64,000 bases of DNA from Streptomyces aurantiacus. Its GTDB lineage: Bacteria > Actinomycetota > Actinomycetes > Streptomycetales > Streptomycetaceae. This document shows, one piece after another, positions 3,653 through 39,965 of this stretch. A program made the translations under genes and the position numbers. Under the pieces are notes generated by a model. The model worked only from the letters and a program-made list of their open reading frames with translations, had not been told where the DNA came from and ran no database searches. Position 1 is the stretch's first letter. Each line of letters opens with the position of its first letter. The DNA lies in the NCBI RefSeq assembly GCF_027107535.1, contig NZ_CP114283.1:8184001-8248000 (forward strand), read 5' to 3'.

Positions 3653-3667
3653 ACGTGCGCCGCACGG

Positions 3668-14667: not shown

Positions 14668-14681
14668 CACCGCTCCCAGGA

Positions 14682-14707: not shown

Positions 14708-14775
14708 GCCGGGACGCCCGGCCCTCGACCGGCCACCCGACGGGTCGTCACCGACCGTCGGGCGGACGGGAGTCG

Positions 14776-15770: not shown

Positions 15771-15985
15771 CTCCTCCAGAGTCTGGGCGGGGCCGAAACC
15801 GGTCCCACCTGAATCGGAGAATAGACGACCGGCGGTCGCGGCGGCTTGCCGATCCGGTCCGCCCGCCGCCCGAACAGGCGCGGTCTTCGCCGCGGACAGC
15901 ACGGACCACTCCAGGTCAGCGCTGCTGCTACGGCTCGGGCAGATGGTCGAACCCATGCGGCGGACTTCCTCTCGTACGACTTCTC

Positions 15986-16004
15986 ACAGCACGCTCCGTG
16001 CTGT
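15986..16004 (-). other. Short perfect hairpin in the sigR leader
   Basis: Arms ACAGCACG and CGTGCTGT (8 bp) surround a 3-base loop, about 12 bases inside the transcript expected from the sigR-type promoter and about 30 bases before the long-form start. It could affect translation or stability of the induced message. Confidence 0.4.
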
Positions 16005-16015
16005 CTGATCCGCAC

Positions 16016-16041
16016 AACAGTGCTCCGGGGCTCGGCATTCC
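16016..16041 (-). promoter_or_regulatory. SigR-dependent promoter of sigR (p2 type)
   Basis: On the minus strand GGAAT (-35) is followed after exactly 18 bases by GTT (-10), the published consensus of SigR promoters. It lies 60 bases before the long SigR' start, as expected for positive autoregulation. Confidence 0.85.
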
Positions 16042-16046
16042 CCGGC

Positions 16047-16691: not shown

Positions 16692-16692
16692 A

Positions 16693-17508: not shown

Positions 17509-17557
17509 ACGTGCCACACTGCCAGATTCCATATGCCCCTAGGGAGCCCACGCAACA

Positions 17558-18280: not shown

Positions 18281-18438
18281 GCCGCTCCCCTCGCAGGCGC
18301 GCGAGCCGCGCGGGCGCCCGCCCACGCCCCGCAGCCGCCCGGCCGCCCCTCCCGCCGAGCACTCGGGCGCGCCCCGCGGCACGGTTTCACCGGATTCGAT
18401 CAAGATCCCGGCCAGTGCCGGACCATTAAAGTGAAGGC

Positions 18439-22127: not shown

Positions 22128-22928
22128 ATGCTCGACTATCGCGATGACCTGCGCCTCGCCCATGTCCTGGCGGACGCCGCCGACGCCGCGACGATGGACC
22201 GGTTCAAGGCGCTCGATCTCAAGGTCGAGACCAAGCCGGACATGACACCGGTGAGCGAGGCCGACAAGGCCGCCGAGGAGTTGATCCGCGGCCACCTCGG
22301 GCGGGCACGTCCACGCGACGCGATCCTCGGCGAGGAGTACGGCGTCGAGGGCACGGGCCCCCGCCGCTGGGTGATCGACCCGATCGACGGCACCAAGAAC
22401 TACGTCCGCGGTGTGCCCGTCTGGGCCACGCTGATCGCGCTGATGGAGGCGGGCGAGGGCGGTTTCCAGCCGGTCGTCGGGGTGGTCTCCGCACCCGCGC
22501 TCGGCCGCCGCTGGTGGGCGTCGAAGGGCCACGGCGCGTTCACCGGCCGCAGCCTGTCGTCCGCCTCCCGGCTGAAGGTCTCCGAGGTCTCCCGCATGCA
22601 GGACGCCTCGTTCGCATACTCCTCGCTGGGCGGCTGGGAGGAGCGCAGCCTGCTGGACGGGTTCCTGGACCTGACCCGCGAGGTGTGGCGCACGCGCGCG
22701 TACGGCGACTTCTGGCCGTACATGATGGTCGCCGAGGGCTCGGTCGACATCTGCGCGGAGCCCGAGCTCTCGCTGTGGGACATGGCGGCGACCGCAATCG
22801 TGGTGACGGAGGCGGGCGGCTCCTTCACCGGCCTCGACGGCCGCCCGGGCCCGCACAGCGGCAACGCGGCGGCGTCGAACGGCATCCTGCACGACGAGTT
22901 GCTGGGGTACTTGAACCAGCGCTACTGA
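22128..22928 (+). CDS. hisN: Histidinol-phosphate phosphatase (inositol-monophosphatase family)
   Basis: The 266-residue enzyme of the IMPase fold has metal motifs [21 protein letters not shown] and [16 protein letters not shown]. The S. coelicolor orthologue SCO5208 was shown to be the histidinol-phosphate phosphatase missing from the his operon, and this context agrees. The last codons (Asn-Gln-Arg-Tyr-stop) supply the attachment core used by the adjacent integrated element. The gene remains intact because the repeated core restores its end. Confidence 0.9.
22915..22928. other. attL core (3' end of hisN)
   Basis: The 14 bases ACCAGCGCTACTGA include the hisN stop codon and recur exactly at the far end of the element. 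The integrase gene ends 38 bases away, the usual attP-int layout. Confidence 0.78.
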
Positions 22929-22965
22929 CGCGACTTACGGCCTGACCTGCGCGTTCCTCCTATCC

Positions 22966-24201
22966 TCACCCCTCCTGGGCCGTCGTGGGGCCGTCATCGG
23001 TCTTCGGGCCGTCCTCAAACGCGCGGTTCACCGCCTCCCGCGTGCGCTTCTCGCTGCTCGGCATGAGGTGCGTGTACGTCCGCAGGGTGAAACCGGGGTC
23101 ATGGTGTCCCAGGTACTCCGACAACGCCTTGATGCTCTCCCCCGCGTCCAGCAGCACGGACGCGTAGAAGTGCCTCAGCGCGTGCATGCCGTTCTCCCTG
23201 CCGCGCGGGACACCCGCCTTGTCTAGAGCGGGCCGCCACGCCTTGAGGTTGAAGCTGCAGCGATTCACCGCGCGCCCCTCGGCATTGGGAAAGAGCAGGG
23301 GCGCCGTGACCGGTGGACCGTCGACCGACCGCCACGGCAGCGTCACGGCCAAAGGTGAGTACTGCGCGATATGAGCCTCCAGCGCGCGAGCGACGCTCTC
23401 CGGCAAAGGGACCGTACGCGCCTTGCCGCCCTTGGGAAGCGCGAACACCTGCTTCGTGGAGATGAGCTTGACCTGGCGAACGATGTGAACGACCCCTTCA
23501 ACGAAGTCCACATCGTCAACGGTCAGGCCGAGCACTTCGCCCTGCCGCATGCCGCACCCGCCGGCCACATCCACCATGGCCCGGTACCGCTCCGGCAGTG
23601 CAGACCGCACGGCCAGCACACGCTCAGGCACCCACGGCGCGATCCGGCGAGGTTCCGGCTTGGGCGCCTTCACGGACGACGAACGGCACGGGTTGTGTGG
23701 GATCAGGCGATCGTCGACAGCGGCCGCCAACATCGCGTTGAGGTTCGCGAAGATGACCCGCTGATAGGCGGGGGCCAATCCCCCATCTTCGAGCTTCCGC
23801 AGCCACTCACGGATGTGGATCGGCCTCAGCGAGTCGAGTGAGCGGCTCCCCAAATGCGGCAGGACGTGCAGCCGAATGCGCGTCTCGGTACTCACAAACG
23901 TGCTCGGGTCCATCGTGAGGGAGGCCAACCACCGTTCGGCGTGCTGCCGCACCGTGAGGCGGCCGGCACGCGGGTCAATGTACTGCCCGCGCGACATGTC
24001 CGCCTCGATCCCAGATAGCCACTTCTCTGCAAGTCGCTTCTGCCCATCAGGGAAGCTCTTGGACTTCTCGGTGCCGTCAGGGCCGATGTACCGGGCTCGG
24101 TAGCGCAGGCCGCTTCCGTGGCGGTCGCTCTTGACGCGGACGGTCTTGCCTTCGGCGTTGGTGTCGGTCTTGAACCAGCGGTCTTGGATGTGGCCTGCCA
24201 T
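22966..24201 (-). CDS. int: Tyrosine site-specific integrase
   Basis: The 411-residue phage-type integrase has a SAM-like core-binding N-terminal domain (RLTVRQHAERWLASLTMDPST) and a catalytic domain with Arg in GMRQGEVLGL, HALRHFYAS (His-X-X-Arg), LGHHDPGFTLRTYTHL with the second His and the nucleophile Tyr. The start MAGHIQDRWFK was chosen because it begins the family-like Arg/Lys-rich arm-binding domain. It ends next to the attachment core in hisN and would catalyse integration and excision with the small protein encoded upstream. Confidence 0.94.
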   Translation of the reverse strand: MAGHIQDRWFKTDTNAEGKTVRVKSDRHGSGLRYRARYIGPDGTEKSKSFPDGQKRLAEKWLSGIEADMSRGQYIDPRAGRLTVRQHAERWLASLTMDPSTFVSTETRIRLHVLPHLGSRSLDSLRPIHIREWLRKLEDGGLAPAYQRVIFANLNAMLAAAVDDRLIPHNPCRSSSVKAPKPEPRRIAPWVPERVLAVRSALPERYRAMVDVAGGCGMRQGEVLGLTVDDVDFVEGVVHIVRQVKLISTKQVFALPKGGKARTVPLPESVARALEAHIAQYSPLAVTLPWRSVDGPPVTAPLLFPNAEGRAVNRCSFNLKAWRPALDKAGVPRGRENGMHALRHFYASVLLDAGESIKALSEYLGHHDPGFTLRTYTHLMPSSEKRTREAVNRAFEDGPKTDDGPTTAQEG

Positions 24202-24280
24202 GTGGCGGCGGTCCTCTCGACACGCAGCAGGGAGAGCCGCCGGATGACGGCTCTCCCTGCTGTCTGCGGTGGGTGTTGGG

Positions 24281-24526
24281 TCAAGCGGCGTTCTGGTCGG
24301 TGCTCTTGCGCTCGGCCACGTGGGCAAGCACGTCGGTGGGGTCGTAGCGGATGTACTTGCCGATGCGGAATCCGGGCGGCCCCACGCGCTTCCTGCGCCA
24401 CTGGTAGACGGTCTCTTTGGGCACCTCGAAGATTTCGGCGATGTCGTCGGGGGTGAGGTACCGATCGGGCAGGCCGCCGCGAAGGGTGGCGCGGGGGTCG
24501 GACTGAGCGGAACTGGTTCGGCTCAT
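24281..24526 (-). CDS. xis: Excisionase-like MerR/HTH_17 DNA-binding protein
   Basis: The 81-residue protein starts MSRTSSAQSD with GAGGAA upstream. DRYLTPDDIAEIFEVPKETVYQWRRKRVGPPGFRIGKYIRYDPTDVLAHV is a standard helix-turn-helix with the wing of Xis/HTH_17 proteins. It sits directly upstream of int on the same strand, as in pSAM2-like elements. An alternative upstream start would add 27 residues of low complexity. Confidence 0.87.
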   Translation of the reverse strand: MSRTSSAQSDPRATLRGGLPDRYLTPDDIAEIFEVPKETVYQWRRKRVGPPGFRIGKYIRYDPTDVLAHVAERKSTDQNAA

Positions 24527-24600
24527 GGGGTTCCTCGGAGGTTGAGGCACGTCGGCTTCGAGGTTCTCGGGCTCTGTGTGTGTCCGAGGTTCGGATTTCT

Positions 24601-24806
24601 GCGTCACCGCGTCACCAGCGTCACCCGAGGCTCTGACCTGCGGGTTTTGGTGACGCGACCGTTCAGGGCTGCGTCACCGGTGTGTCACCGGCTGCGTCAT
24701 CGGGTGACGCAGGTGACGCAGGATGACGCAGAGTCGGCCGTCTGCGTCATCGCTGTTGGCGCAGGTCAGCGGCCGGATTTCGGGCCGGGTGACGCAGATG
24801 ACGCAG
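24601..24806. repeat. Array of TGACGCA / TGCGTCA repeats
   Basis: At least a dozen copies of TGACGCA or its complement lie in about 200 bases, in both orientations. Examples are at 24601, 24609, 24618, 24671, 24693, 24705, 24714, 24724, 24743, 24790 and 24799. They fill the gap between the excisionase gene and the 3' end of the replication gene. Such arrays suit a replication origin (iterons) or cooperative regulator sites. The rest of the 330-base gap shows no gene. Confidence 0.75.
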
Positions 24807-24858
24807 CGTCTTCCTACTTAGGACAAAGAAGGGGCTGCCTGTAGTACTTCGGTGCGCC

Positions 24859-26451
24859 TCACAGCGTGAAGAAGGAGCCGCTGCGCGGCGCGACCTTGGG
24901 GCGGCGTTCCGCCGAACAGCAAGAGGAGCACGTGCTCTTCTTGCTGTTCGCTTGAGCGTGCGGGTCGTGGGTCAGAACGCCCGCGTCTGCTCGGGTGGAG
25001 GCAGGGTCAGGGCGACTGTGCGGGTCATTTCGAGGTAGCGGCCCGCTTTGGTGCGGCCCGAGTCGATGAGGACGCCCCGGGCGGCCAGGGTGGGCTGTAG
25101 GCGCTTGAGGCGGTCGGAGAGGACTTTGCCGGTGGTGGGCCACTTTGGGCAGGGGACGGCCGTCGTTGCCGCTGTAGAGGTGGCTGAGGCAGGCGAGCCA
25201 CTCGATGGACGTCATCTGCTGCGCTGCGCCCGGCTCGATGGTCTCCGCGTGCTGGAGGACGGTCTGCGCGAGGAGGTCACCTTCGATCACGTCGTCGTTG
25301 AGGTCGTCGAGACTGGCCCGGTACGCGGGCAGTGCCCCGAGGCCGGTGGCGGCGTCGAACTGCGCGCACAGGTGGGCGAAGTCAGCCATCCGCAGGTCGG
25401 TGGGGGTCTCCGCGTCCACGGCGCGGACCTTGACGGTGAGGTCCAGGAGCGAGCCGAGGACGACGGGCAGTACTTCCGCGTAGTCGGCCCACAGTTCGGC
25501 TTCGGTGCGCCGGACGCGGGGCCGCTCCAGCCGCAGCGGCAGGAGCCGTTCCGCGAGGTCGGGGCGGATGACGCCGACGTCGATTCCGGTGAGGAGCAGG
25601 GGGCGGCGGTAGCCGACGCGGAACACGTCCCCGTCGGTGAACAGGGCCCGCTTGACGCTCTCGGCTCCGGTCACGATGCAGCACATCGCATCCGACAGGT
25701 CCGGCGTCATGTGGGACAGGTTGTCCAGCGCGGTGACCCATCCCGCCGCAACAGCCGCGATCAGGTTCTCCTCATCCTTCGGCGCCCGCCGCAGGTCACC
25801 GCTCATGCCCTCGATGATCCGCACGAGCATGCGACCCCCGGTGGACTTGCCCGCTCCCTGGGGCCCGGTGAGGAACGGCGCGGGGACCGGCACGGACGGC
25901 CCGAGGCAGCCGATCAGCCATGCGATGGCCAGGCATTCGGTCTCGGCGTTGGCGAAGTTGCACAGCCGCATCAGCAGATCGATGCCCTTGCCGTCGGTGT
26001 CCTTGACCGGCAACGGGAGTTCCCCGGTGAGCTGGGTGCGTCGCCAGCAGACTTCACGCGGGTCGGGGGTGAGGATGTCCCAGCCCGACGGGTGGATGCG
26101 GACGGACTGCCCGTCGTCGCGGCCCAGGTCCAGCCACGTGGCCCCGTCGAATCCGGGGGCGACGCGGATGTTCACGGCGTGCGTGTCCGCGTCCAGCGCG
26201 AGGGCTTCGATGAGGTCCAACGCCTCTTTCATCGCGGACCCGTTGAACACGCCGCGCCCGTCCTTGAACAGGCCGACCATGAGTTCCTGCCGGTGGCTGC
26301 CTGTGGTGCCCTGAGAGCGCATCGGGCGGGCCACGGGGTGCCCGTTCTTCTGCGCGTAGACGGTTCCGTCGGGGGTGCGGAAGTACCGGAAGTGCGCCTG
26401 TGCGTAGTCGGTGATGACTTCGCGGCCGGGGGTCTTTTCGTCCTCAGACAT
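24859..26451 (-). pseudogene. Phage/plasmid primase-helicase-like ATPase, frameshifted near the 3' end
   Basis: The first ~435 residues look intact: an N-terminal domain, then a P-loop GPQGAGKSTGGRML, and VTALDNLSHM as the Walker B region, as in D5/primase-associated helicases. After NDGRPLPK the frame turns to Pro/Arg-rich nonsense (VAHHRQSPLRPPQ). Shifting by +1 at position 25143 restores a normal winged-helix ending (WPTTGKVLSDRLKRL ... AGRYLEMTR) with a stop at 24972. One inserted base explains this. The start overlaps the prim-pol stop by 8 bases. A sequencing error or a programmed +1 shift are the alternatives. Confidence 0.8.
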
Positions 26452-27307
26452 GCTGAAGTCCCAACGTGGTCAGGGCGTTGGTCCACGCATCCGTGCAGTG
26501 CCGGGGCGATTCGCCCTTGGCCTGCGCTGCGGTGAACAGGCGCGCGGTGTGCGTTTCGGTGAGGCAGCCGCACCGGCCGTGCGTGGACAGCACCGCGAGG
26601 AACGTCCGGTAGACGGTCGCGTGCACCGCACTACGGGCTTCGGTGATGCGCTGCTCCGCCATGGCGATGCCACGGTCCAGATAGGTGGGAGTGCGGTGCG
26701 GACACTCCCCGCCACCGGCCGGCGCGGGCACCGTGACGGACACCGGACGGGTCGGGCCCGGCTCTTTCACGGTCAGCGCGCGCACGGCGTCGGGCAGGGC
26801 CGTCATGGTGCCGGTACCGGGCCCGAGGTAGCGGGCGTAGGCCATGGTCGACTTGATGTCGACGCCGGGCCGTACGGCGTTGGCGGACGGCATGGACCCC
26901 AGGTAGAGCCAGTGCTCACCGCGCGTCGTCGGCATGGTTTGCGTGGCGGGCAGGGTTTCGCGGGCCCATGCGATGGCTTCGGCGTGGTCCAGGTCTACGA
27001 CCGTCAGCCAGGCTCCGCCCGGGTGATAGGCAACCGCGCTCGCCTGCACCCAGGCACGGCGCCACATGCCGGACTGGATGACGTCCGGGTCCGTGGTCGC
27101 GGCGGCCCAGCCGTGGCACGGGTACGGGCAGGTGCAGGGGCCGGGGGTCTTCATGTTCGGCCGGCCACCACACGCGTTGTCGGTGCAGCGGCGGCAGTTG
27201 CCGAACGGCACCTTGCCCACCCGCAGCGGCAATACGGGGATCTGCGAGGCGGCCAGGTCGAGGGCGGTGCGCAGGTGCTCTCGCCGAATGTCGGTCGGTT
27301 GGGTCAT
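26444..27307 (-). CDS. Prim-pol domain replication protein
   Basis: The 287-residue protein carries the bifunctional primase-polymerase signature: VVDLDHAEA (metal-binding Asp-X-Asp), TTRGEHWLYLG (the Ser/Thr-X-X-His-like motif) and GVDIKSTMAYARYLG. Cys-rich segments (CRRCTDNACGG, CTCPYPC) near residue 45 suggest zinc binding. AICEs are known to use RepSA, RepAM or prim-pol type replication proteins, and this is the last kind, working with the adjacent helicase-like protein. Confidence 0.88.
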   Translation of the reverse strand: MTQPTDIRREHLRTALDLAASQIPVLPLRVGKVPFGNCRRCTDNACGGRPNMKTPGPCTCPYPCHGWAAATTDPDVIQSGMWRRAWVQASAVAYHPGGAWLTVVDLDHAEAIAWARETLPATQTMPTTRGEHWLYLGSMPSANAVRPGVDIKSTMAYARYLGPGTGTMTALPDAVRALTVKEPGPTRPVSVTVPAPAGGGECPHRTPTYLDRGIAMAEQRITEARSAVHATVYRTFLAVLSTHGRCGCLTETHTARLFTAAQAKGESPRHCTDAWTNALTTLGLQHV

Positions 27308-27398
27308 GCTGGAGGTCTCCAGTTCCTAGACGTGCTGGATTGGCGGCGGCCCCGGTTCTTGGTCGGATGGGGGCCGCCGTTGTCGTTCGCTGGAGGGG

Positions 27399-29234
27399 TC
27401 AGGCCGCTTGCTGGCCGGGCAGGAGCCTGCCGTCGGCGGTCCGGTGCAGGGCTCCGCTCGCGGTGAGTGCCTTGATCTCGCGGGAGACGGTGCCCTTGTT
27501 CAGCCCGGTCGCATCCGCCACGTCCTTCGCGGTGCGCGCCCCGGACTGAACGGCGGCCAGCACCTTGTCCCGGTTGGATGCCGCCCCGGACGGTGCGGGC
27601 GTGTCCTTGACCAGGTGCAGCGCACGCGGCGACTGTCCGCCGGAGGCCTGGTCGGGGGTCCAGATCGACTTGGGCAGTGCGCGGACGCCTGCGTCGTCGA
27701 GGGTCCAGGTGCGCAGCATGCGCGGGCCGTAGCCCTTGAGGTAGCCGTGGCCTCGGTACTCGCGGCCGTCGGGGATCTGGTGCGGGGCGTAGTGCGCGCA
27801 GTCGTCCAATGCGACCTGTGCCTGTGTCGTGCCGGCCACCCGCAGCGAGAACCGCGTCAGCAGGTTGGGCGCGATCAGCTTGTGCACGCCCGGCGCCCCG
27901 CCGTCGGTGAGCGGGTACTGGGTGGCCCACCACAGAACGACACCGCGCGAGCGACCGAGTGAGGACAGCTCGATCAACCGTTGCAGCCGGTCCTTGTCCT
28001 TGGTGATCAGGGCCAGGATCACCTGTCCCTCGTCGACGACGACGGTGAGCTGTCGGCCGTCCCACACGCTGATCCCGCGCTGTTTCATGTCGACCTTGCG
28101 GCGGTTCATCTCCGCGTGTGCCTCGTCGACGGCGTCGGTGATCTCGTCGCGTTCTACGGCGACGCGGCACGAGTGCTCCCAGATGTTGGCTTCTTCGCCC
28201 TCGATGAGCAGCAGGTCTCCGCGCAGGTGGGCGGTCGCCATGAGGGGGCGGAACGACCAGGACTTGCCGGTGCCGGACGCGCCGGACACCAACAGCCGCT
28301 CGTCGAACGGGATCAGGACCTCATCCCCGGTTTCGGTGTCCAGAGCGAGGCTCATCATGAGCGGGTCGGACGGGATGCGGTCCGGGGTCCACAGCGAGGA
28401 AACGCCCGCGGCTGCCGAACGAGTAGCCAGGGTTACGACGGCCCACCCGCCGCGCGAGGCAGAGGTGATCCGGATGCGCAGCGCGGTGCGGGCCCCGAGC
28501 AGTGCACGGACCGAATCGGCCTTGTCCGCGAGCGTCTTGACCGTCCACGTCCCATCCAACCGGATCTCGCACCGGATGCCGCCCGGCTCCATCGCCGGAG
28601 GCGTCGTCACCGTGCCCGACAAGCCACGGTCGGGAGCGTGCTCCACCCAGTACGAGGGGTCGAGCCGCTCCATGAGCTGACGCTCTTCCAGCGACACCGA
28701 CTCATCCACCACCACCCGCAGCTTGCGCCGCCCGAGCGCGAGACCGGCCACGTTCGCCCCGATCAGCGCGGCCGAGGTGGCGGCCGGCCACAGCGTCAGA
28801 TGCGAGGCGGACATGACCACGGACGTGACGACCGTGGGCACGGCGTGCAGCGCATGCGCCTGAATCGCGCGGGCCTTGAGCGTGCTCGGGTAGTTCACCC
28901 GCGCGGCCTTGAGCTTGGCGCGGGTGTCGCGCTCGTGCCGCGCGGCTGCCTTGCTCGCCACCCGTGCGGCACGGCGGCCGGCCGCGAACGGATTGTTCGA
29001 CGCGGCGCGCGCGGTGAGCTTCTGCGACTTGGCCGTGGACAGCGTGGACCGCGCGGCGTTGTGCTCCTTCTGAGCACCCATGAGCGCCTTCAAGTGCTCC
29101 GGGGTGCGCAGCTTGTTTCGCCGGTCCGCCTCAAGATCCCAGCGGACTGCGAACGGCACGCACACGGGGGTGAGCGAATCCAGCGCGCTGTTGGTGGTGT
29201 TGGCGGTGGTCGACCATGCTTGCTTCCAGTCCAC
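27399..29234 (-). CDS. traB: FtsK/SpoIIIE-type conjugal transfer ATPase (TraB-like)
   Basis: The 611-residue protein moves double-stranded DNA between mycelia, the single-protein conjugation system of actinomycetes. It has a coiled, basic N-terminus, two hydrophobic helices at about 128-168, a RecA-like motor with Walker A GASGTGKSW and Walker B LTVVVDEGQV, and a C-terminal winged helix (AKDVADATGLNKGTVSREI) that should recognise the transfer locus. GTG start with AGGAGG 9 bases upstream. Confidence 0.92.
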   Translation of the reverse strand: MDWKQAWSTTANTTNSALDSLTPVCVPFAVRWDLEADRRNKLRTPEHLKALMGAQKEHNAARSTLSTAKSQKLTARAASNNPFAAGRRAARVASKAAARHERDTRAKLKAARVNYPSTLKARAIQAHALHAVPTVVTSVVMSASHLTLWPAATSAALIGANVAGLALGRRKLRVVVDESVSLEERQLMERLDPSYWVEHAPDRGLSGTVTTPPAMEPGGIRCEIRLDGTWTVKTLADKADSVRALLGARTALRIRITSASRGGWAVVTLATRSAAAGVSSLWTPDRIPSDPLMMSLALDTETGDEVLIPFDERLLVSGASGTGKSWSFRPLMATAHLRGDLLLIEGEEANIWEHSCRVAVERDEITDAVDEAHAEMNRRKVDMKQRGISVWDGRQLTVVVDEGQVILALITKDKDRLQRLIELSSLGRSRGVVLWWATQYPLTDGGAPGVHKLIAPNLLTRFSLRVAGTTQAQVALDDCAHYAPHQIPDGREYRGHGYLKGYGPRMLRTWTLDDAGVRALPKSIWTPDQASGGQSPRALHLVKDTPAPSGAASNRDKVLAAVQSGARTAKDVADATGLNKGTVSREIKALTASGALHRTADGRLLPGQQAA

Positions 29235-29606
29235 GAAAGGGTCCTCCTAGACCGTGGATGAGGGCCGGTGCGCCGTCGCATGGCGTCACCGGCCCGCCCG
29301 AGTTGCAGGGAGCAGCGCTGTCGGTTGCGCCGACAGCACCGGTTGAACCCCCGCAACCACATCTGACCTGCGAAGTTGCAGAGTTGAGCAGTGGGGAGGG
29401 GTGGGGGCCCTACGCGCCCGCGCGCGTAGGGCGGCGGAAAATCGGGCCGTGCAACCCCCTCACGGGACCCTGAACGGCCGTTCACGGACCGGGGTATCTC
29501 GACCCACACGGAAGGGGGTCCGGGCGCTCTCCGGGCCGCCTACGGCTCCCGGCTCTTCCCGGGGGCGAGCGGGGCCGTAGACGGCTCGTGCCGGGCGCCG
29601 TCCCGT
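29235..29606. other. Intergenic region before traB with a strong hairpin
   Basis: There is no convincing gene in these 370 bases. A perfect hairpin (CCCTACGCGC / GCGCGTAGGG, 29408-29431) and several GTTGCA/TGCAAC words lie here, followed by CCGGG-rich copies towards 29570. The position upstream of traB and beside the spread gene would suit the transfer locus or a terminator. Confidence 0.45.
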
Positions 29607-29915
29607 TCAGTGTTTGGGGCGGGCGAGGCGCAGCGTGATGCCGCCGATGCCGATGGGTCCGGCGGTTTGGGCGATGACCGTGACCGTGTGCGCGGCGGCG
29701 TCGAGCAGCGCGCACAGGGCGGCCACCAGTCCCCAGCACCCCACGGCGGCGGCACCGGCGATGACGAGGGGGAACAGGTAGTGGCGCAGCGGTCGGCCGG
29801 TGTGGTCGGTGGTGTGGACGACGATGACGACCGGTTGACCGGTGGCTTCGGCGCGGCGGTAGGCGTCGGCGGGAATGTGCGGGGCGATGATCCCCGGCGG
29901 GTCACGATGTGCCAT
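29607..29915 (-). CDS. Small membrane protein, probable plasmid-spread (Spd) type
   Basis: The 102-residue protein has a hydrophobic segment LFPLVIAGAAAVGCWGLVAALCALLDAA and a second weaker one near the C-terminus. GAGGGAGAG precedes the ATG. Location between the transfer ATPase and the SpdB2-like gene matches spd genes that help plasmid DNA cross septa. There is no specific family signature, so this is assigned by context. Confidence 0.65.
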   Translation of the reverse strand: MAHRDPPGIIAPHIPADAYRRAEATGQPVVIVVHTTDHTGRPLRHYLFPLVIAGAAAVGCWGLVAALCALLDAAAHTVTVIAQTAGPIGIGGITLRLARPKH

Positions 29916-29990
29916 CAGGGCTCTCCCTCACGATCAGTTGGAGTCGGCACCGGTACACAGGCAAAGAGCCACTGGCCGGTGCGGTGGTCA

Positions 29991-31001
29991 TCAGCGGCCC
30001 GTACCGGCGAGATCAACCGGCACGCCGTTGACGGGCCCGCGCAGTTCGGCATACCGGGTCGAGACCCAGCCCACCGACCAGCCGCATAGCTCCGCTGCGG
30101 TCCGCACCGACATGCCCTCCGCACGGGCGGCGGCCACGATGGCGCGCGCGTCGTCCTCGGGGAGCTTGTCCGTGACGGGGCCGGCGGACAGCAGAGCGGC
30201 GCGTTCACGCGCGGCCTGCTCCTCCCGCTCGGCCTGTTCACGGCTCTCGCGCTCGGCACGCTCCCGCTGCTCGCGTTCCGCGTGCTCGGCGGCCACTCGT
30301 TCACGGCGTTCACGGTCCCGCTCACGCTGTTCACGCTCACGGTCCACGCGTTCACGCTGCTCGCGCTCGGCCCGTTCCCGAGCCTGCTCACTCTCGCGTT
30401 CCTCGCGCCGGACGGCGGCCTCCCGCTCGGCCTGTTCACGGACCATGCGGGCTTCGTGCTCACGCTGTTCACGCGCCAGCGCCGCCGCATGCTCGCGTTC
30501 CTCGCGGGCCCGCCGGGTAGCCTCATCCCGCCGCTCGATGGCGGCGCGTTCGCGGGCTTCCCGCTCGGCTTGCTGCTTGGCTTCCAGTACCAGAACGGCG
30601 GCAGTGATGGCCCGCCGGTAGGCGAGTCCGGTCTCCGCCGTGACGATCAGCAGGAGCGGCGCGACCGCATGCACAGCCACGCCCACCAGGTCGTTCTTGA
30701 GCGCGGAGTCGGCGACGTTGAGGGCGAGGGTCATGCAGCCGGTCATCCACCGCAGGGCGATGGGCCACCGTCCGCCGTTGCCCCCGAGCCGGGCGAGCAC
30801 CGCGTCCAGCCGGACCACGATGACCACGGCGGCATCCACCACGAGGGGAAGGATGGGTGCGGTCCAGTCCCACTTGTCGGGGGTGTGCTCGGCCGCGAGC
30901 GGGGTGACGGTGAGGATCGAGTAGAGCATGGCGCCCGCCACGATCAGCCACGTGCCGACCGACAGCGCGCGCTCCGCTGAACGGATCTGAACGCCGTTCA
31001 T
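29991..31001 (-). CDS. DUF2637 / SpdB2-like protein with long charged coiled coil
   Basis: The 336-residue protein has four hydrophobic helices (about 10-145: GTWLIVAGAMLYSILTV, ILPLVVDAAVVIVV, TGCMTLALNV, AVAPLLLIVTAE). A coiled coil of about 120 residues follows, built almost only of Arg, Glu and Ala (REREQRERDRERRERV). The C-terminal helix-turn-helix is MSVRTAAELCGWSVGWVSTRY. DUF2637 proteins accompany transfer genes in AICEs and are linked to intramycelial spread. The HTH suggests DNA tethering to the membrane. Confidence 0.87.
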   Translation of the reverse strand: MNGVQIRSAERALSVGTWLIVAGAMLYSILTVTPLAAEHTPDKWDWTAPILPLVVDAAVVIVVRLDAVLARLGGNGGRWPIALRWMTGCMTLALNVADSALKNDLVGVAVHAVAPLLLIVTAETGLAYRRAITAAVLVLEAKQQAEREARERAAIERRDEATRRAREEREHAAALAREQREHEARMVREQAEREAAVRREERESEQARERAEREQRERVDREREQRERDRERRERVAAEHAEREQRERAERESREQAEREEQAARERAALLSAGPVTDKLPEDDARAIVAAARAEGMSVRTAAELCGWSVGWVSTRYAELRGPVNGVPVDLAGTGR

Positions 31002-31294
31002 ACGCCCACCCCCGAGCGTGAACGCACCCGGATCGCGGCGATCAGGACGACCGGGGAGGCGGGGTTGTCGGGGGTCTCGCGGTCCTCGGTCCACGTCCAT
31101 TCAGCGCCTGGTACCGGCTCGAAGCCGAGCACGCTGAGCGCGTCCGTACGGTCCGTGAACGTCGGGACCGTGTGCCCGAACCGGTGCTCCGGCCACCTCT
31201 CGCAGGTGTTCAGCAGCACCACGTACAGACGCCAGAAGCCCTCACGGGCGGACATCTGCGCGGTGAACTCCCGCGCCGTCTTCTGTCCGTTCAC
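30998..31294 (-). CDS. Small element protein (DUF6303-like)
   Basis: The 98-residue protein begins MNGQKTAREFTAQMSAREGFWRLYVVLLNTCERWPEHRF and contains an aromatic-rich core (GAEWTWTEDRE). It overlaps both neighbours by 4 bases and is part of the transfer operon. Similar small proteins occur in many Streptomyces AICEs without known function. Confidence 0.72.
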   Translation of the reverse strand: MNGQKTAREFTAQMSAREGFWRLYVVLLNTCERWPEHRFGHTVPTFTDRTDALSVLGFEPVPGAEWTWTEDRETPDNPASPVVLIAAIRVRSRSGVGV

Positions 31295-31557
31295 GCCGTG
31301 CCGCCCCGGTGCGTGTCCGCAGCCTGGTTGGCCAGCTCGCGGCGGGCGGCCAGAACCCGGCGGTGGGCCCGCCGGATGCGGCGGGTGTCCAGCTCGTTCG
31401 GGGCGTGGTTCAGGGCGATGATCTGCGCGTCCAGCAGCTCGACGCCGGCCAGGATGACCGGCATCTCCCGCTCAATCGCGTCCAGCTCCGCAGCCGTCGG
31501 CTCGCGGTCGAAAAAGTCGGCGGTAACAACCGCCTGAACAGCACCGATGTGCTTCAT
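31291..31557 (-). CDS. Small element protein (DUF6284-like), first gene of the transfer operon
   Basis: The 88-residue, helix-rich protein (PTAAELDAIEREMPVILAGVELLDAQIIALN, then RRIRRAHRRVLAARRELA) is typical of short proteins found upstream of spd genes. The GTG of the next gene overlaps its stop by 4 bases. Function unknown. Confidence 0.72.
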   Translation of the reverse strand: MKHIGAVQAVVTADFFDREPTAAELDAIEREMPVILAGVELLDAQIIALNHAPNELDTRRIRRAHRRVLAARRELANQAADTHRGGTA

Positions 31558-31593
31558 GGGTCGTAGTTCCCTTCACAGAGGAACGGCCCGAAC

Positions 31594-31623
31594 GCGGTCC
31601 CCGGGTTGCCCCCCGGGGACCGC
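31594..31623. other. Hairpin in the leader of the transfer operon
   Basis: Arms GCGGTCCCCGGG and CCCGGGGACCGC (12 bp) around a 6-base loop lie 37 bases before the first gene of the minus-strand operon. It could be an attenuator or processing site. A second perfect hairpin (CGCTGCTCGT / ACGAGCAGCG) follows at 31658-31682. Confidence 0.5.
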
Positions 31624-31933
31624 TCGCCGTTGAAGTCGGATGTCCGGCTCCCCTCAGCGCTGCTCGTACGAGACGAGCAGCGGAGGCAACCGGCCGCAGC
31701 GAACTGCGGTGGATGAGTGGTCTCTTTCGGGGACACGACTGCCGGATCAAGGAACAGCTCGCTAGGGCCCCGTTGCAGGCAGCGACCTGACCTTTCGGTC
31801 TGCCATCCGGACTGCCAAGGGATCGCCCGCCGTGAGACAGACGACTGTCCGGTGCCCTCCCCCCGTCCAATGCGGGGCTCCTGGTCATGCGTTGTTGCAG
31901 GTCAAGCAGCCAAAACAGCCACTCCCCGAACTG

Positions 31934-32030
31934 CCTAGGGGGGGTTACCGCTTCGCTTGCTAGGTACCGTAGGCAAACCCAAGGCTGCGCGCAACCCCCT
32001 CTCGCGATACAGTTCGTTAGCCCCCCTAGG
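31934..32030. promoter_or_regulatory. Widely spaced inverted repeat in the divergent promoter region
   Basis: CCTAGGGGGG (31934-31943) and CCCCCCTAGG (32021-32030) form a 10-base inverted repeat with 77 bases between. Near the middle is an imperfect palindrome around GGTACC. The pair frames the divergent promoter region between the transfer operon and the HTH gene, so it is a candidate operator for that regulator. The remaining part of the 490-base gap shows no gene. Confidence 0.5.
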
Positions 32031-32046
32031 CGATGATTGGAGAGTC

Positions 32047-32892
32047 GTGCACGACGACATGGAGCAGGTGCCTGGGATCGCGGACCCAGTCGACCGAGCC
32101 AAAGCCGCAATCGACCTGATGGCGAGGTATCAGGGCTGGGTGCTGGAGCTGTCCCGCATCCGGCGCGAGGCCATCGAGGAGGCGCAGGCGTCCGGTTTGA
32201 CTCAGGCTGAGATCGCCAAGCGGCTCGGGGTCAGTCGAGGCCGAGTAGGGCAGCTAGCGTCCGCCGGCCCGCCGCCAGAGCGGGCGTTCTTCGGTACGGA
32301 CCTGGTGACGGTGTCGCTCGGCGGCAAACCGGAAGCAGACAAGACCCCCGAACAAAACCCCAGCGACGTCGTCGCGAGGGAAGATCTCGACAACTTTGAG
32401 CACCTGCGCAAGCTGCTGAGCGGCATGAAGCTTGAGGCTCAGTACGAGGTGATCCCCTCGACAGGCATCGTCAACCTGAACCGCGAAAACCACGTGGTCG
32501 TCTGCGGCCCACGGCTGTCGCCCATCGTGGCTCAGGTTCTGGAGGGCGATAACAACCTGCGGTTTGAGAAGGACCGAGCCTGGCACTTGGTGGACCAAAA
32601 AGCCGGGAAGGCGTACCGGTCACCGATGGATGAGAACGGCTCAGCGGGTGACTTCGGCTACCTCGGGCGACTCCCTCGCCTGGACGGCCGAGGGACGTTC
32701 CTCTACATCGCTGGAATCCACGCCATAGGCGCCAACGGAGTCGTTCACTTCCTGGAGAACAACCTTGCCGAGCTTTACCGAGAGGTCCGCACTCGACGCT
32801 TCTCAACACTCATTTCGTGCCGCTACGACCCCGAGACACTCGACGTGCTGGAGAGTCGACGTGTCACTCCGCTGTACCGACATGAGGGCTGA
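32047..32892 (+). CDS. HTH regulator with unknown C-terminal domain
   Basis: The 281-residue protein has an N-terminal helix-turn-helix (SGLTQAEIAKRLGVSRGRVGQLAS, about residues 50-75) and a 180-residue domain of mixed strand character (NRENHVVVCGPRLSPIVAQVL, WHLVDQKAGKAYRSP, TFLYIAGIHAIGANGVVHFLENN). That domain looks like a sensor or TIR-unlike Rossmann fold I cannot name. The GTG start with GGAGAG close upstream was chosen. A later ATG at 32059 is possible. Two bases separate it from the phosphatase gene, so the two work together. Confidence 0.75.
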   Translation: MHDDMEQVPGIADPVDRAKAAIDLMARYQGWVLELSRIRREAIEEAQASGLTQAEIAKRLGVSRGRVGQLASAGPPPERAFFGTDLVTVSLGGKPEADKTPEQNPSDVVAREDLDNFEHLRKLLSGMKLEAQYEVIPSTGIVNLNRENHVVVCGPRLSPIVAQVLEGDNNLRFEKDRAWHLVDQKAGKAYRSPMDENGSAGDFGYLGRLPRLDGRGTFLYIAGIHAIGANGVVHFLENNLAELYREVRTRRFSTLISCRYDPETLDVLESRRVTPLYRHEG

Positions 32893-32894
32893 AC

Positions 32895-33701
32895 ATGCGC
32901 GTCTCCATTGATACGCGCCCTGGGGGAACCAACCCGAACGAAGACTGGGTGGCCGGCACGTCCACGCTCGCGGTCGTGCTCGACGGGCTCAGCACTGCAG
33001 GCCTGACCACGGGGTGCCGCCATGGCGTCCCGTGGTATGTCGCCCACCTCGGAAGTCAGCTCATAGCTGCTCTGACAGACCCAAACCGACCACTCGTAAA
33101 TGGCTTGGCGGACGCCCTCGAACGCGTGGCAAAGATGCACCCCGAGTGCGATCTCAACAACCCGGGAACGCCATCAGCCACAGTCGCGATCCTGCGCCAT
33201 AGACACGACGCCCTTGACCACCTGGTTCTCGCAGACTCACCCATCATCTTCAACAGCCCCCGTGGCTACTCAGTGATCACCGATCTCCGCGTTGACGATG
33301 TCCTTCCCGAGATGAAAGCCGAAGTCGAGAGGCACGAGACCCACACCGAAGGACACAGAGAGGCTCTTCGACGCTTCGTGCTTGCTCAACGACAGGTGCG
33401 CAATACGCCGGACGGGTATTGGGTCGCTGCAGCCAGGCCTGACGCGGCTGAGCACTCACTGACCGGCGCAACTCCCCTTCGAGAGGTGCACGCCGCCGCC
33501 GTCATGTCCGACGGCGCATCGCGGCTCGTGACCGAGTACGAGATGGCGACGTGGCCCGAAGTGTTCGCGACGCTCCGGACGGGGGGGCCGCGCGAGCTGA
33601 TTGACACCGTGCGCAAGGTGGAGGCCACGGATCCCACAGGGCGGCGGTGGCCTCGGTACAAGTCGGGGGACGACGCCGCCGTTGCCTTCTGTCAATGGTG
33701 A
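32895..33701 (+). CDS. PP2C-like (PPM family) phosphatase-domain protein
   Basis: The 268-residue protein keeps the metal-site pattern of PPM phosphatases: NEDW near the start, VVLDGLS (Asp-Gly motif), VMSDGASR and a C-terminal GDDAAVAF. The middle is shorter than in housekeeping PP2C proteins. It probably dephosphorylates Ser/Thr or acts as an adaptor for the HTH protein encoded just upstream. Its kinase partner is not in the element. Confidence 0.78.
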   Translation: MRVSIDTRPGGTNPNEDWVAGTSTLAVVLDGLSTAGLTTGCRHGVPWYVAHLGSQLIAALTDPNRPLVNGLADALERVAKMHPECDLNNPGTPSATVAILRHRHDALDHLVLADSPIIFNSPRGYSVITDLRVDDVLPEMKAEVERHETHTEGHREALRRFVLAQRQVRNTPDGYWVAAARPDAAEHSLTGATPLREVHAAAVMSDGASRLVTEYEMATWPEVFATLRTGGPRELIDTVRKVEATDPTGRRWPRYKSGDDAAVAFCQW

Positions 33702-33742
33702 CCACCGCTAGCCAGTGTTTCCCCCTGACCAGTGCAAAAGAA

Positions 33743-33775
33743 ACGGGCGCAGCCTCGCAGTCAGGCCGCGCCCGT
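33743..33775 (+). terminator. Hairpin terminator after the phosphatase gene
   Basis: Outer arms ACGGGCGC and GCGCCCGT enclose inner GCCT/AGGC. CTCATTT follows. It closes the two-gene operon before the convergent fic gene. Confidence 0.7.
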
Positions 33776-33936
33776 CTCATTTACCGCCGCACGCAGCCGA
33801 CAGAGCCGTTCGCCGCGTGCCTGTCGACTCAGCGCCCGTACTGGAATGAACGACGCTGAGCACGTCTAGATCATGCCCTGACCAGTATGAACAGTCCCTA
33901 AGCGAGCACTACAGGCGTAGCGTGAATCGCGATTCT

Positions 33937-35292
33937 TTACTCGGTTTCAGTTTCCTCATTCATCCCACGCAGACGCTGCGCCAGATCTTCCACCGGCCTC
34001 CAGCTAAACGAACGACCACTCTTCCCTTTTGCGAAAAGCCCGTAATTCTCCAACCCAATTAGATCTTGCCTCGCCGTTTCATACACAACGTTATGACTCG
34101 CCATATGCGACTGCGCAGTGACCGATGCACCCGGGTTCTTCATCGCATGATTGAGCAAGGCAATTTGCCGGTGATTGAAAAGCTTCTGCGCTCCAGAGAT
34201 AGTCTGCTGCAGCTCGCGAACCTCCTCCGCCTTTTTGCTCAAATATTCGTGCAACTGAGCAATGGACCGCTGCAGAACCCCCAATTGGTACAAGTGGAAG
34301 TAGGTGAGATCATTCTCATCATCTTCAGAATGCAAGTAACTATGCGCATACTTGGAAGGGGCATTCTTCAGAATCGGAGAGATGGCGACATACTCGGTGA
34401 GCCAGTAGCCCTGATTCAACATTGACCAGTAGAACAGAGCCCGAGCCGTTCGGCCATTCCCGTCCTCAAACGGATGGTCGTATCCGATCATAAAATGGAC
34501 CGTGATGGCCCGTAGGACGGGTGGAATATACGCATCATCCAATTCGCCATTTGCGAAGTCACATAGCTTTTGCACGCGCGCAGAAAGAGTCTCTGCCGCA
34601 GGGGGTGTATGCAGCAGGAGATCACCGTTCCAAACACTTACACGATCTTCGTCCGGCAACTGGAACCGACCGGACGCACTTGGATTGTCCAGCGTGCCAT
34701 CGGTAACGACTCGATGAATCTCGCAGATCATTTCCGGAGTCAAGCGCTCATTTCGCAAATCCCCAATCATTCGCATTGCTTGGTAATTATTGTAGATCAT
34801 TCGCTCGTCGCGGTCGCGCGGCTGACGCTGAGTTCGAATCATCTCTTTTGCCACTGCCCGGCTAGTGGATGCGCCTTCTAGCTGGCTAGAGTTAATTGCC
34901 TCCTCAATCAAGGAGTTAATCAAGTAGCGGTCGCGAGTTGCAGGGTTAGTGACCTGCTCGCTGATCGTGATTTTCCCGCTGGCGTCACGGCTAACTTCTT
35001 CCAGCGACTTCAAAATGACATCCGGGAGTGCGAAAACGAACGGCTTCCCATCGATGTCAAGCAATGGAAGTCTCCGCTGCACTCTGCGACGGGCAAGCTT
35101 AATTCCCGCCCACCACTCCTCGTGCGTGAGATCTTCGGGAGGGTTCTTGTACCGGAGCTTATCCCAGGGTAGATATGGATCAGTTGGCCCGGCACCCGGA
35201 GCGGTAAGAATCCTTGTAATCTTCTCCGGCTCCGATTCCACGATGAGCTTCATGGTCTCGTCCGGTGGTGGCGGCGGCATTGGCCGTCTCAT
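33937..35292 (-). CDS. Fic-domain AMP-transferase-like protein with N-terminal inhibitory motif
   Basis: The 451-residue protein has the full catalytic Fic motif HPFEDGNGRTAR and, about 120 residues earlier, SSQLEG, which fits the inhibitory Ser/Thr-X3-Glu-Gly/Asn helix of class II Fic proteins. A C-terminal winged helix (QIALLNHAMKNPGASVTAQ ... YETARQDLIGLENYG) follows. Class II Fic proteins AMPylate targets and need no separate antitoxin. ATG with GGAGAC 6 bases upstream was chosen. Its codons are clearly richer in A and T than the surrounding genes, a sign of recent transfer. Confidence 0.9.
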   Translation of the reverse strand: MRRPMPPPPPDETMKLIVESEPEKITRILTAPGAGPTDPYLPWDKLRYKNPPEDLTHEEWWAGIKLARRRVQRRLPLLDIDGKPFVFALPDVILKSLEEVSRDASGKITISEQVTNPATRDRYLINSLIEEAINSSQLEGASTSRAVAKEMIRTQRQPRDRDERMIYNNYQAMRMIGDLRNERLTPEMICEIHRVVTDGTLDNPSASGRFQLPDEDRVSVWNGDLLLHTPPAAETLSARVQKLCDFANGELDDAYIPPVLRAITVHFMIGYDHPFEDGNGRTARALFYWSMLNQGYWLTEYVAISPILKNAPSKYAHSYLHSEDDENDLTYFHLYQLGVLQRSIAQLHEYLSKKAEEVRELQQTISGAQKLFNHRQIALLNHAMKNPGASVTAQSHMASHNVVYETARQDLIGLENYGLFAKGKSGRSFSWRPVEDLAQRLRGMNEETETE

Positions 35293-35419
35293 GTACACGT
35301 CTCCAATCGCAAGGGCAGGCTCGATCGTCGCGCAGGCGCTGCCTAGGCGCGCGGTGCAGAGACGTCGGCACGTCCTGCCACCATCGCGGGCTCAGGCGCT
35401 CCTTGAAGCTGTCGTTGCA

Positions 35420-35532
35420 AACTACTAGCGAGCTACTATTTTGCACCAGAGTAGTAGAATCACGCATCTGGGCAGCTCAGAGCACTGCGATGCAGCGCCA
35501 GACACCCCCACAGCCACCCCCCGACTGAACCG
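35420..35532. repeat. Direct repeat copy 1 (divergent)
   Basis: It shares ACTACTAGCGAGCTACTATT at its start and CAGCTCAGAGCACTGCGAT followed by the 40-base CCCCCACAGCC-rich tail with the other two copies. Its middle differs and is about 3 bases shorter. It lies about 125 bases before the fic start. Confidence 0.85.
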
Positions 35533-35673
35533 TCGGCGACCGCCCACGCTGAACTACTAGCGAGCTACTATTTCGTCCCAGGCTAGTAGTGGCGTCATCT
35601 GTTCATCCAGCTCAGAGCGCTGCGATACAGCGCCAGACACCCCCACAGCCACCCCCCGACTGAACCGCCAGCA
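35533..35673. repeat. Direct repeat copy 2
   Basis: The 141-base unit is identical to copy 3 except at position 35619 (G instead of A), and starts exactly 180 bases before it. Each unit holds an internal inverted repeat ACTACTAGC ... GCTAGTAGT (9-base arms 35553-35561 and 35582-35590) plus a further CTACTA in direct orientation. Confidence 0.92.
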
Positions 35674-35712
35674 GCTCATACCCGGCTCCACTGACGCCAT
35701 CACGAAGACCCC

Positions 35713-35853
35713 TCGGCGACCGCCCACGCTGAACTACTAGCGAGCTACTATTTCGTCCCAGGCTAGTAGTGGCGTCATCTGTTCATCCAGCTCAGAGCAC
35801 TGCGATACAGCGCCAGACACCCCCACAGCCACCCCCCGACTGAACCGCCAGCA
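35713..35853. repeat. Direct repeat copy 3
   Basis: Offset by exactly 180 bases from copy 2 with one mismatch in 141. The 39 bases between the two copies (35674-35712) are unique. Confidence 0.92.
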
Positions 35854-35896
35854 CCGGCATCTGCACGCCCAAGAGTCGTCCGCGCCCCAACAGCAA

Positions 35897-35930
35897 GAAG
35901 CCCCCCAGCCAATCAAGGCCGAGGGGCTTC
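35897..35930. terminator. Possible bidirectional terminator
   Basis: Arms GAAGCCCC and GGGGCTTC (8 bp) lie 18 bases apart. A second hairpin CGGAGGC/GCCTCCG follows at 35952-35969. Confidence 0.4.
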
Positions 35931-36097
35931 GGACATCGGGACTCACACCAACGGAGGCAGCCGCCTCCGGCCGGGCCGCCTGTGGGCCGTCCGAGGGCGG
36001 CCCACGACGACCAACAACGACCACCGACAACGGCTGCCGCGCAGCTCTCCGAAGGGGTGCGAGCCAACACCGCACCCCGGGGAAAGACCAGTTCAAT

Positions 36098-36111
36098 ACC
36101 AGCGCTACTGA
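36098..36111. other. attR core
   Basis: ACCAGCGCTACTGA is an exact copy of the last 14 bases of hisN. It marks the right end of the element. Flanking bases differ on both sides. Confidence 0.75.
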
Positions 36112-36274
36112 GGTGTGTGGAGTCGTCAGAGGCACCGGACGACGCAGCGCGCGCCCCGAACCGTGCGCGCACGCCCTCTTGTTGACCCTCTCTTCGCCTG
36201 CGACTCTGAGAGTCCCCCCACTTGTGAACTTGTGAATCCGTTAACTAACGGATTCGTAGGAGGTGGCTCCGTCC

Positions 36275-36667
36275 ATGCTCGTCCGCGACGCCATGAGCAC
36301 GGTGGTCCTCACCATCGGCCCCGCCCACACCCTTCGCAAGGCCGCCGCGCTGATGTCCGCGCGTCGTATCGGCGCGGCCGTGGTCCTCGACCCCGACGAC
36401 AGCGCGCTCGGCATCCTCACCGAGCGCGACATCCTCAACTCCATCGGCCTGGGCCAGAGCCCGGACACCGAGCGGGCCCACGCCCACACGACCACCGACG
36501 TGGTGTTCGCCACCCCGACCTGGACGCTGGAGGAGGCCGCTTCGGCCATGGCCCACGGCGGTTTCCGTCATCTCATCGTCCTCGAGCACGGCGAGCCGGT
36601 CGGCATCGTCTCGGTCCGCGACATCATCCGCTGCTGGGCGCCGCTCCGTCAGCCCGCCCCGGCCTGA
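36275..36667 (+). CDS. Two-CBS-domain protein
   Basis: The 130-residue protein is a tandem CBS pair: MLVRDAMSTVVLTIGPAHTLRKAAALM ... GILTERDIL, then TTTDVVFATPTWTLEEAASAMAHGGFRHLIVLE ... GIVSVRDII. Such stand-alone pairs bind adenosyl nucleotides or NAD and act as energy sensors. AGGAGG lies 11 bases before the ATG. It is the first chromosomal gene after the integrated element, so the element separates it from hisN. A strong terminator follows. Confidence 0.88.
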   Translation: MLVRDAMSTVVLTIGPAHTLRKAAALMSARRIGAAVVLDPDDSALGILTERDILNSIGLGQSPDTERAHAHTTTDVVFATPTWTLEEAASAMAHGGFRHLIVLEHGEPVGIVSVRDIIRCWAPLRQPAPA

Positions 36668-37539: not shown

Positions 37540-37549
37540 CGGTCTTCAG

Positions 37550-37623
37550 TAGCGGGGACAGGATTTGAACCTGCGACCTCTGGGTTATGAGCCCAGCGAG
37601 CTACCGAGCTGCTCCACCCCGCG
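37550..37623 (-). tRNA. Initiator tRNA-fMet (anticodon CAT), copy 1
   Basis: The 74-base gene folds as a standard cloverleaf. The anticodon stem has three consecutive G-C pairs (CTGGG-CTCATAA-CCCAG), and the first base C1 is unpaired with T72. Both are initiator features. CCA is not encoded. Its sequence is identical to the second copy downstream. Confidence 0.95.
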
Positions 37624-39882: not shown

Positions 39883-39891
39883 CAACTTCAG

Positions 39892-39965
39892 TAGCGGGGA
39901 CAGGATTTGAACCTGCGACCTCTGGGTTATGAGCCCAGCGAGCTACCGAGCTGCTCCACCCCGCG
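39892..39965 (-). tRNA. Initiator tRNA-fMet (anticodon CAT), copy 2
   Basis: Base-for-base the same as copy 1, with the same three G-C anticodon-stem pairs and C1/T72 mismatch. Only the flanks and the terminator sequence differ. Confidence 0.95.

Follow-up and report, generated by a model that had tools for sequence, protein, structure and literature searches.

A 13.18-kb element lies between hisN, which encodes histidinol-phosphatase, and a gene for a CBS-domain protein in the genome of Streptomyces aurantiacus. We analysed a 64-kb stretch of this genome (the window, whose first letter is position 1) and conclude with high confidence that the element is of the actinomycete integrative and conjugative element (AICE) type and was put into this place by its own tyrosine integrase. 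Comparison of sequences defines the insertion point, the attachment core and the empty site, and reveals independent copies in other genomes. A prediction made from the letters of the window alone (the original prediction) had placed an AICE-type element at the 3' end of hisN, and both the empty sites and the end repeats of independent copies support this placement. The hisN element is a further case of a known kind, and the series of integrase specificities around hisN is worth following.

The hisN attachment site and its empty counterpart

The features that define the site are the following.

22128..22928, + strand: hisN (histidinol-phosphatase), the target gene, stop codon included (NCBIfam TIGR02067 above cut-off; Pfam Inositol_P)
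22915..22928, + strand: left attachment core ACCAGCGCTACTGA, the final 14 bases of hisN (repeat search, genome count)
22942..22951, + strand: CTGACCTGCG motif, starting 14 bp past the core, putative site of integrase binding (position)
22966..24201, - strand: tyrosine recombinase (integrase), 411 aa (PF00589, 76.3 bits; motifs)
36098..36111, + strand: right attachment core, second copy of ACCAGCGCTACTGA (repeat search, genome count)
36263..36667, + strand: CBS-domain gene, chromosomal neighbour of hisN in empty sites (PF00571, 90.1 bits; empty-site comparison)

The product of hisN scores 300.9 bits against TIGR02067, for which the cut-off is 275.15. As the original prediction had stated, the last 14 bases of the gene recur at 36098-36111, identical and on the same strand. 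No further copy of ACCAGCGCTACTGA with two or fewer mismatches is present in the 64-kb window; shuffled windows gave 0.35 such matches, and two were reached in 3 of 100 shuffles. In the entire 9.9-Mb genome the 13-mer CCAGCGCTACTGA occurs exactly twice, at the two ends of the element, and its reversed control pattern occurs nowhere. Counted from the first base after hisN through 36111, the element is 13,183 bp long, in agreement with the predicted 13.2 kb. Since the shared core holds the final codons and the stop of hisN, the gene is complete after integration and a core is left at both ends; the stop codon is preserved, as had been proposed. Integration would have been a recombination, catalysed by the integrase, between attP, the core carried by the circular form, and attB, the terminal bases of hisN. 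Two tRNA-Met genes (37549-37623 and 39891-39965, 2.3 kb apart) lie near the site, and the element uses neither.

A search of 392 Streptomyces genomes at E <= 1e-80 detected hisN in 387. Empty sites were sought in the 29 best-matching loci besides our own and in the 18 loci of the same genus (L182-L199) among 30 further ones, the 12 from other genera being left out. The CBS-domain gene directly follows hisN in 43 of these 47 loci. The first set contributes 28 of 29, at a distance of 118-867 bp, and the second 15 of 18; the three exceptions in the latter are the occupied genome G081 and two loci without a CBS-domain gene within about 1.5 kb. In the window this gene starts 163 bp past the right core, a spacing that is equal in loci L138 and L140. 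The sequence from 36112 onward aligns to these two loci at 87% and 86%, with scores of 228 and 238; the left end of the element scores 14 and 16 there. The comparison was made for 12 of the 29 loci, and in 11 of them the right flank outscored the left end of the element. The empty site that the original prediction had asked to be sought, with hisN running directly into the sequence from 36112, is represented by the adjacency of the two genes in 43 loci, two of which, L138 and L140, align to the window from 36112 on. Two results had been named as contrary to the prediction, the lack of any such site in relatives and the lack of the repeat in other copies; both were looked for and neither was found.

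Independent copies behind hisN

Integrases were sampled by similarity, with 80 of 126 candidates retained from one search and 30 loci each from two others, and for this reason we give no prevalence of hisN occupation. The 134 loci collected include 12 in which hisN lies beside an integrase. These represent nine distinct integrases; Streptomyces sp. SID12488, S. fulvorobeus and S. durocortorensis are among the sources. Both ends were resolved for eight elements, that of the window included, and a CBS-domain gene lies beyond each; in the ninth case, S. durocortorensis, the contig stops at the integrase start. The eight elements measure 13.2, 15.3, 9.4, 12.3, 11.5, 17.4, 27.5 and 19.9 kb and are flanked, in the same order, by repeats of 14, 14, 13, 15, 14, 11, 14 and 16 bp.

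Variant cores (CAGAAGTAC, ATGCGCTAC and GCGGTAC) are present at both ends of the same element in three of the eight. In genomes G242, G092 and G182 the end of hisN deviates from its commonest form, and the far repeat carries the same variant. Two variant ends, encoding NQKY and NMRY, were sought with one codon spelling apiece, and of the 392 genomes only the occupied one had the variant in either case. The 15-base hisN ends of the 47 loci fall into 17 kinds, of which 12 are singletons. Because singletons are common and the variant stands at both ends, the variant cores may stem from the element or from the host.

These copies bear on the possibility that the 14-bp repeat arose by chance and that the island arrived otherwise, for example by homologous recombination. 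Although 14 bp alone is short, the core has only two copies in 9.9 Mb, seven other genomes show the same arrangement (with matched variant cores in three), and relatives have empty sites. We have rejected a chance repeat on these grounds and consider this explanation exceedingly improbable.

A motif adjoining the core has a constant place in these elements. TGACCTG starts at element base 15 in all eight, and in either orientation it lies no more than 120 bp from the integrase stop for 56 of the 114 integrases at >=55% identity, where about 2 would be expected with equal bases. In the window, CTGACCTGCG with at most one mismatch occurs 18 times against 10.7 expected, a count as high in 3 of 100 shuffles. 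Because this enrichment is mild, the argument for CTGACCTGCG rests on its fixed place in the eight elements. The motif was picked after the sequences had been seen, and we regard TGACCTG as a candidate integrase-binding site.

In genome G119 (L164, L178) an element-like left end follows hisN, and the CBS-domain gene lies 2.2 kb behind hisN. No integrase match was obtained in this locus, nor was a second core found with the pattern used, and we read it as a probable decayed copy. A tRNA-like 3' end is visible by eye between its hisN and CBS-domain genes.

Targets of the wider integrase lineage

The original prediction had called a protein-coding target unusual. This does not hold for the present lineage: a tRNA gene lies within 300 bp of the integrase stop, on the integrase-proximal side to which the count refers, for one of 127 distinct related integrases (L074). 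The vast majority of AICEs with a tyrosine integrase are described at tRNA genes, the whole pSLS subfamily being excepted (Ghinet 2011, PMC3218068), and 36 tRNA genes, 14 protein-coding genes and 1 intergenic site are counted for conjugative elements (Choufa 2022, PMC9513070). The latter names rlmN and a glycosyltransferase gene among the protein-gene sites; the words hisN, histid- and inositol are absent from its main text. Among the papers listed in searches of the open-access literature, supplements excluded, we found none naming hisN as such a site.

The targets of the more distant integrases were inferred from the gene that ends beside int, and in some loci the sequence behind int is short (131 bp in L019). 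The genes so identified encode a glutamine synthetase (21 integrases), a CAP-domain protein (10, and 4 more by eye) and HisN (9), and include glnA for a second glutamine synthetase (6), murA (2), gpmA (2, and 2 more by eye) and nusG (1, and 1 more by eye). With one representative examined for each, both glutamine synthetases, murA, gpmA and nusG pass the curated NCBIfam cut-offs. In L068, which represents gpmA, the gene ends 372 bp from int, a greater distance than in the other groups, and the CAP-domain name rests on a YkwD match below cut-off. Many of the 127 integrases fall into no clear group, and a 'cdsA-side' group is without an assigned site. We rejected the notion of an exceptional protein-gene target because related integrases adjoin the genes for glutamine synthetases, murA, gpmA and further protein genes. 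The hisN case is thus real and, since related integrases lie behind other housekeeping genes, of a known kind, contrary to the idea that such elements seldom use protein genes as targets.

Closest to the hisN integrases are L032, L035, L036, L037, L119 and L131 (the last truncated), which share another core. A second copy of this core lies at the 3' end of moeZ, on the integrase-distal side, in L119/L172 (80-bp repeat) and in L035 (11-bp repeat); the last 300 residues encoded score 550 bits against the MoeZ model, the cut-off being 647. The moeZ target was seen at both ends in two of the six, and the other four were assigned by a similar core next to int. In L038, from Kitasatospora, a 13-bp core is repeated at the end of an integrase-distal gene whose product we take, from its sequence, to be Mrp-like. 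The host gene is integrase-distal for moeZ (two loci) and for the Mrp-like gene (one locus), and integrase-proximal for hisN and for the more distant relatives.

A midpoint-rooted tree was built from 60 of the 127 integrases, with 9 of the 21 members of the large glutamine synthetase group and with unresolved-target rows excluded. The nine hisN integrases form one clade (support 100/99) that is nested among the moeZ-core integrases. Its sister is L032 (96/96), a member of the moeZ-core group, and that group requires two changes on this tree. The topology fits a single origin of hisN targeting from moeZ-core integrases, and the sequences of the two groups are only 17-26% different. Residues 121, 123, 128, 155, 156, 183, 251, 279 and 306 are fixed in the nine hisN integrases and absent from the six of the moeZ-core group. 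These nine are candidates only for positions that set target specificity, since chance and shared ancestry explain many such differences. A fuller scenario, to which we lend belief and doubt in equal measure, is that the lineage diversified to target conserved protein genes at their 3' ends and that hisN specificity arose once from moeZ-core integrases by a change of core, with TGACCTG kept and the host gene passing from the integrase-distal to the integrase-proximal side.

Elements at protein genes of Streptomyces offer two points of comparison. Those described in PMC9513070 are alike in their short repeat (11 nt at rlmN) and their protein-gene target. PAISt, at the 3' end of bacA (PMC4057263), is likewise integrated site-specifically at the 3' end of a protein gene. 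Unlike the hisN element, it is a large genomic island, and its site is an 8-bp palindrome.

As a gene that 387 of the 392 genomes searched possess and that integration leaves complete, hisN adds to the candidate landing sites of Streptomyces. Because the site is widespread, the gene is left complete and the core is short, the hisN integrase could become an integration tool. The integrase family provides, in addition, a natural series of close integrases with differing targets, suited to tests of which residues govern the choice.

Gene content and state of the element

Besides the integrase, the element holds the following features.

24281..24607, - strand: HTH_17 (helix-turn-helix, HTH) protein, likely excisionase (PF12728, 41.2 bits; TIGR01764, 15.7 bits, below cut-off)
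24600..24805, no strand: nine TGCGTCAYC repeats, from the xis start to rep, candidate replication origin or transfer site (copy count; relatives)
24859..26451, - strand: replication protein (Rep), frame shifted near residue 436 (DNA alignment; third-position G+C; no Pfam match)
26444..27307, - strand: primase-polymerase (prim-pol)-like protein (52% identity to L181 11775-12680)
27399..29234, - strand: FtsK/TraB-type transfer ATPase (Tra), pIJ101-like (homology; Walker A GASGTGKS)
29607..29915, - strand: small protein beside tra, spdA-like by position only (position)
29991..31100, - strand: membrane-like/HTH protein, spdB-like (38% to L180 1594-2694, a DUF2637 protein)
30998..31294, - strand: DUF6303 protein (PF19820, 125.6 bits)
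31291..31557, - strand: DUF6284 protein (PF19801, 135.1 bits)
31957..32892, + strand: sigma-70 region 4-like HTH protein, possible regulator (PF04545/PF08281)
32895..33701, + strand: PP2C-like phosphatase (PF13672, 21.9 bits, below cut-off 24)
33937..35298, - strand: Fic-domain protein (SoFic-like), cargo (PF02661, 64.8 bits; PADLOC SoFic 1.4e-37; HPFEDGNGR motif)
35420..35853, no strand: long direct repeats with three ACTACTAGCGAGCTACTA boxes, TAG-rich, upstream of fic (repeat search)

The integrase contains RQGE, HALRH, LGH and TYTH, which we take to be tyrosine recombinase motifs. The original prediction had listed integrase, excisionase, prim-pol, FtsK-like and spd genes. The first stands (PF00589), and the second stands as an excisionase-like HTH protein whose excisionase model stays below cut-off. 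The prim-pol and FtsK-like proteins, for which Pfam gives no match and a match below cut-off in the window, respectively, are supported by their homologues. The spd assignment draws on position and on the 38% identity that the larger product shares with a DUF2637 protein.

The homologue of the prim-pol-like protein at L181 11775-12680, 52% identical, is annotated as prim-pol and scores 39.2 bits for PF09250. Its source, NZ_CP107792.1, is circular, 18.45 kb long (1-18451) and filed as a plasmid; an integrase of 56% identity and a product annotated as FtsK are encoded there too, and the record may represent an excised AICE. Of the RepSA, RepAM and Prim-Pol types of Rep expected in an AICE, the window element may have the last, judging by the 52% identity. 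Tra has a homologue on pIJ101 (NC_001387.1) that shares 42% identity across 594 residues, and one of 61% identity is encoded on an 8.7-kb plasmid of S. californicus. The pIJ101 homologue scores 38.8 bits for Pfam FtsK; it is annotated in its record as a helix-turn-helix protein, and we presume it to be Tra. By homology only, the window protein would represent the FtsK/SpoIIIE-type Tra expected of an AICE. The pIJ101 record has spdA and spdB annotated beside this gene, and the plasmid differs from our element in having no integrase annotated in the record. The DUF2637 protein resembling the larger spd-like product comes from the plasmid whose Tra is 61% identical to ours. The smaller one has no convincing family match in profile scans and has 63-65% relatives in two other hisN elements. 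Neither matched pIJ101 at E <= 1e-3.

Searches with tblastn found integrase matches in all eight hisN elements (83-100%), as well as HTH/xis matches (55-100%), the latter recovered in six of the eight by clustering of open reading frames (ORFs). Rep matches were found in six, two of these at 32-33%, the prim-pol-like protein in four, DUF6284 in four, and the HTH and PP2C-like proteins in three; full-length Tra and Fic are confined to the window. The HTH and PP2C-like pair (31957-33701) occurs in the window, G221 and G092. The G081 element carries a pSAM2-type RepSA and, in region L171 8840-16502, a Tn3-family transposase and a 1469-aa WD40 protein. Since integrase and HTH/xis are found in all eight and the other modules in six or fewer, the integration module tracks the site, and by these matches the hisN elements are a mosaic held together by that module.

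In excision, the HTH/Xis protein would assist the integrase in recombining the two cores. Replication of the circle would then fall to prim-pol and Rep, with the TGCGTCAYC repeat region as a possible start; the FtsK-type Tra would transfer it as double-stranded DNA, and the Spd-like proteins would spread it. Nine of the ten TGCGTCAYC copies in the window lie within 206 bp, in both orientations, where 1.66 are expected per 64 kb; the pattern was picked after the sequence had been seen. Clusters occupy the same place in G288, G242 and G092, all with a similar Rep. G182, G221 and G081 have no cluster, and in G106, whose Rep is only 32% similar, it lies elsewhere. This distribution suggests that Rep may bind the cluster as an origin. 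A 38-bp near-perfect palindrome of two 19-nt arms (24913-24950) lies within the 3' portion of rep, and its arms recur in G092, G242 and SID12488 with a spacer between them.

Several observations weigh against an AICE-type element placed by its own integrase. In L137 the end of the element aligned better than the right flank (30 versus 9), the one such case in 12 comparisons. The repeat in G081 is just 11 bp, with the stop TGA at hisN and TAG at the far end; none of 31 genomes retrieved for comparison with G081 proved a particularly near relative. The window Tra scores 14.3 bits for Pfam FtsK, below the cut-off of 24, and the prim-pol-like protein has no match in the Pfam scan. The other hisN elements are without this Tra, save for one partial 30% match, and Pfam FtsK reaches its cut-off in only two of them, G221 and G092; it was not seen among the scanned proteins of G288, G242, G182, G106 and G081, where the scan covered part of their proteins. 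Because Tra is not common to the hisN elements and FtsK reaches its cut-off in only two others, some elements at this site may not be conjugative. Excision, replication and transfer of the window element are inferred from homology. Finally, the window rep is 2 bases shorter near residue 436 than in three relatives by DNA alignment. Third-position G+C switches to another frame at this point, across which the three relatives keep long open frames. The shift may reflect decay or a sequencing error, and Rep of the window copy may be impaired through its altered C-terminus; with Rep frame shifted, the present mobility of the element is therefore uncertain.

The rep shift also favours a variant of our interpretation, not exclusive of it, in which a degraded, immobile AICE remnant is fixed at the site. 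The decay at the same site in G119 and the AICE decay described in PMC9513070 point in this direction; a full-length integrase with its motifs, open HTH/xis, prim-pol and Tra frames and two identical cores speak against it, and we hold a remnant to be possible and somewhat unlikely. An integrated plasmid or prophage instead of an AICE is very improbable. Among plasmid records Tra is closest to that of small plasmids such as pIJ101, yet an integrating plasmid with Tra, Rep and Int comes close to the definition of an AICE. The Pfam scan of 13 ORFs of the element yielded no structural family of phages, and integrase matches in phage records were all below 60% identity, the ten listed lying at 30-32%; on these two results we rejected the prophage.

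Compared with the AICEs with a tyrosine integrase described in PMC3218068, the AICE-type element of the window is alike in its integrase, HTH/xis, FtsK-type Tra, spd-like genes and att repeats, and possibly in its prim-pol-like and Rep proteins. It differs in having hisN instead of a tRNA gene as its target and in yielding no match to GntR (KorSA-type) or NUDIX families in the 13 ORFs. The same Pfam scan gave no relaxase or type IV secretion family at E <= 0.1, in line with an AICE, which should have neither.

The sigma-70 region 4-like HTH protein has 773 homologues, and the named ones among the 120 listed are mostly from Streptomyces. Neither fic nor the ACTACTAGCGAGCTACTA boxes upstream of it have a match in the seven other hisN elements. 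The Fic protein contains the stretch NSSQLEG, which presumably resembles an inhibitory motif. The G+C content of fic and its upstream repeats (33937-35298 and 35420-35853) is below that of the rest.

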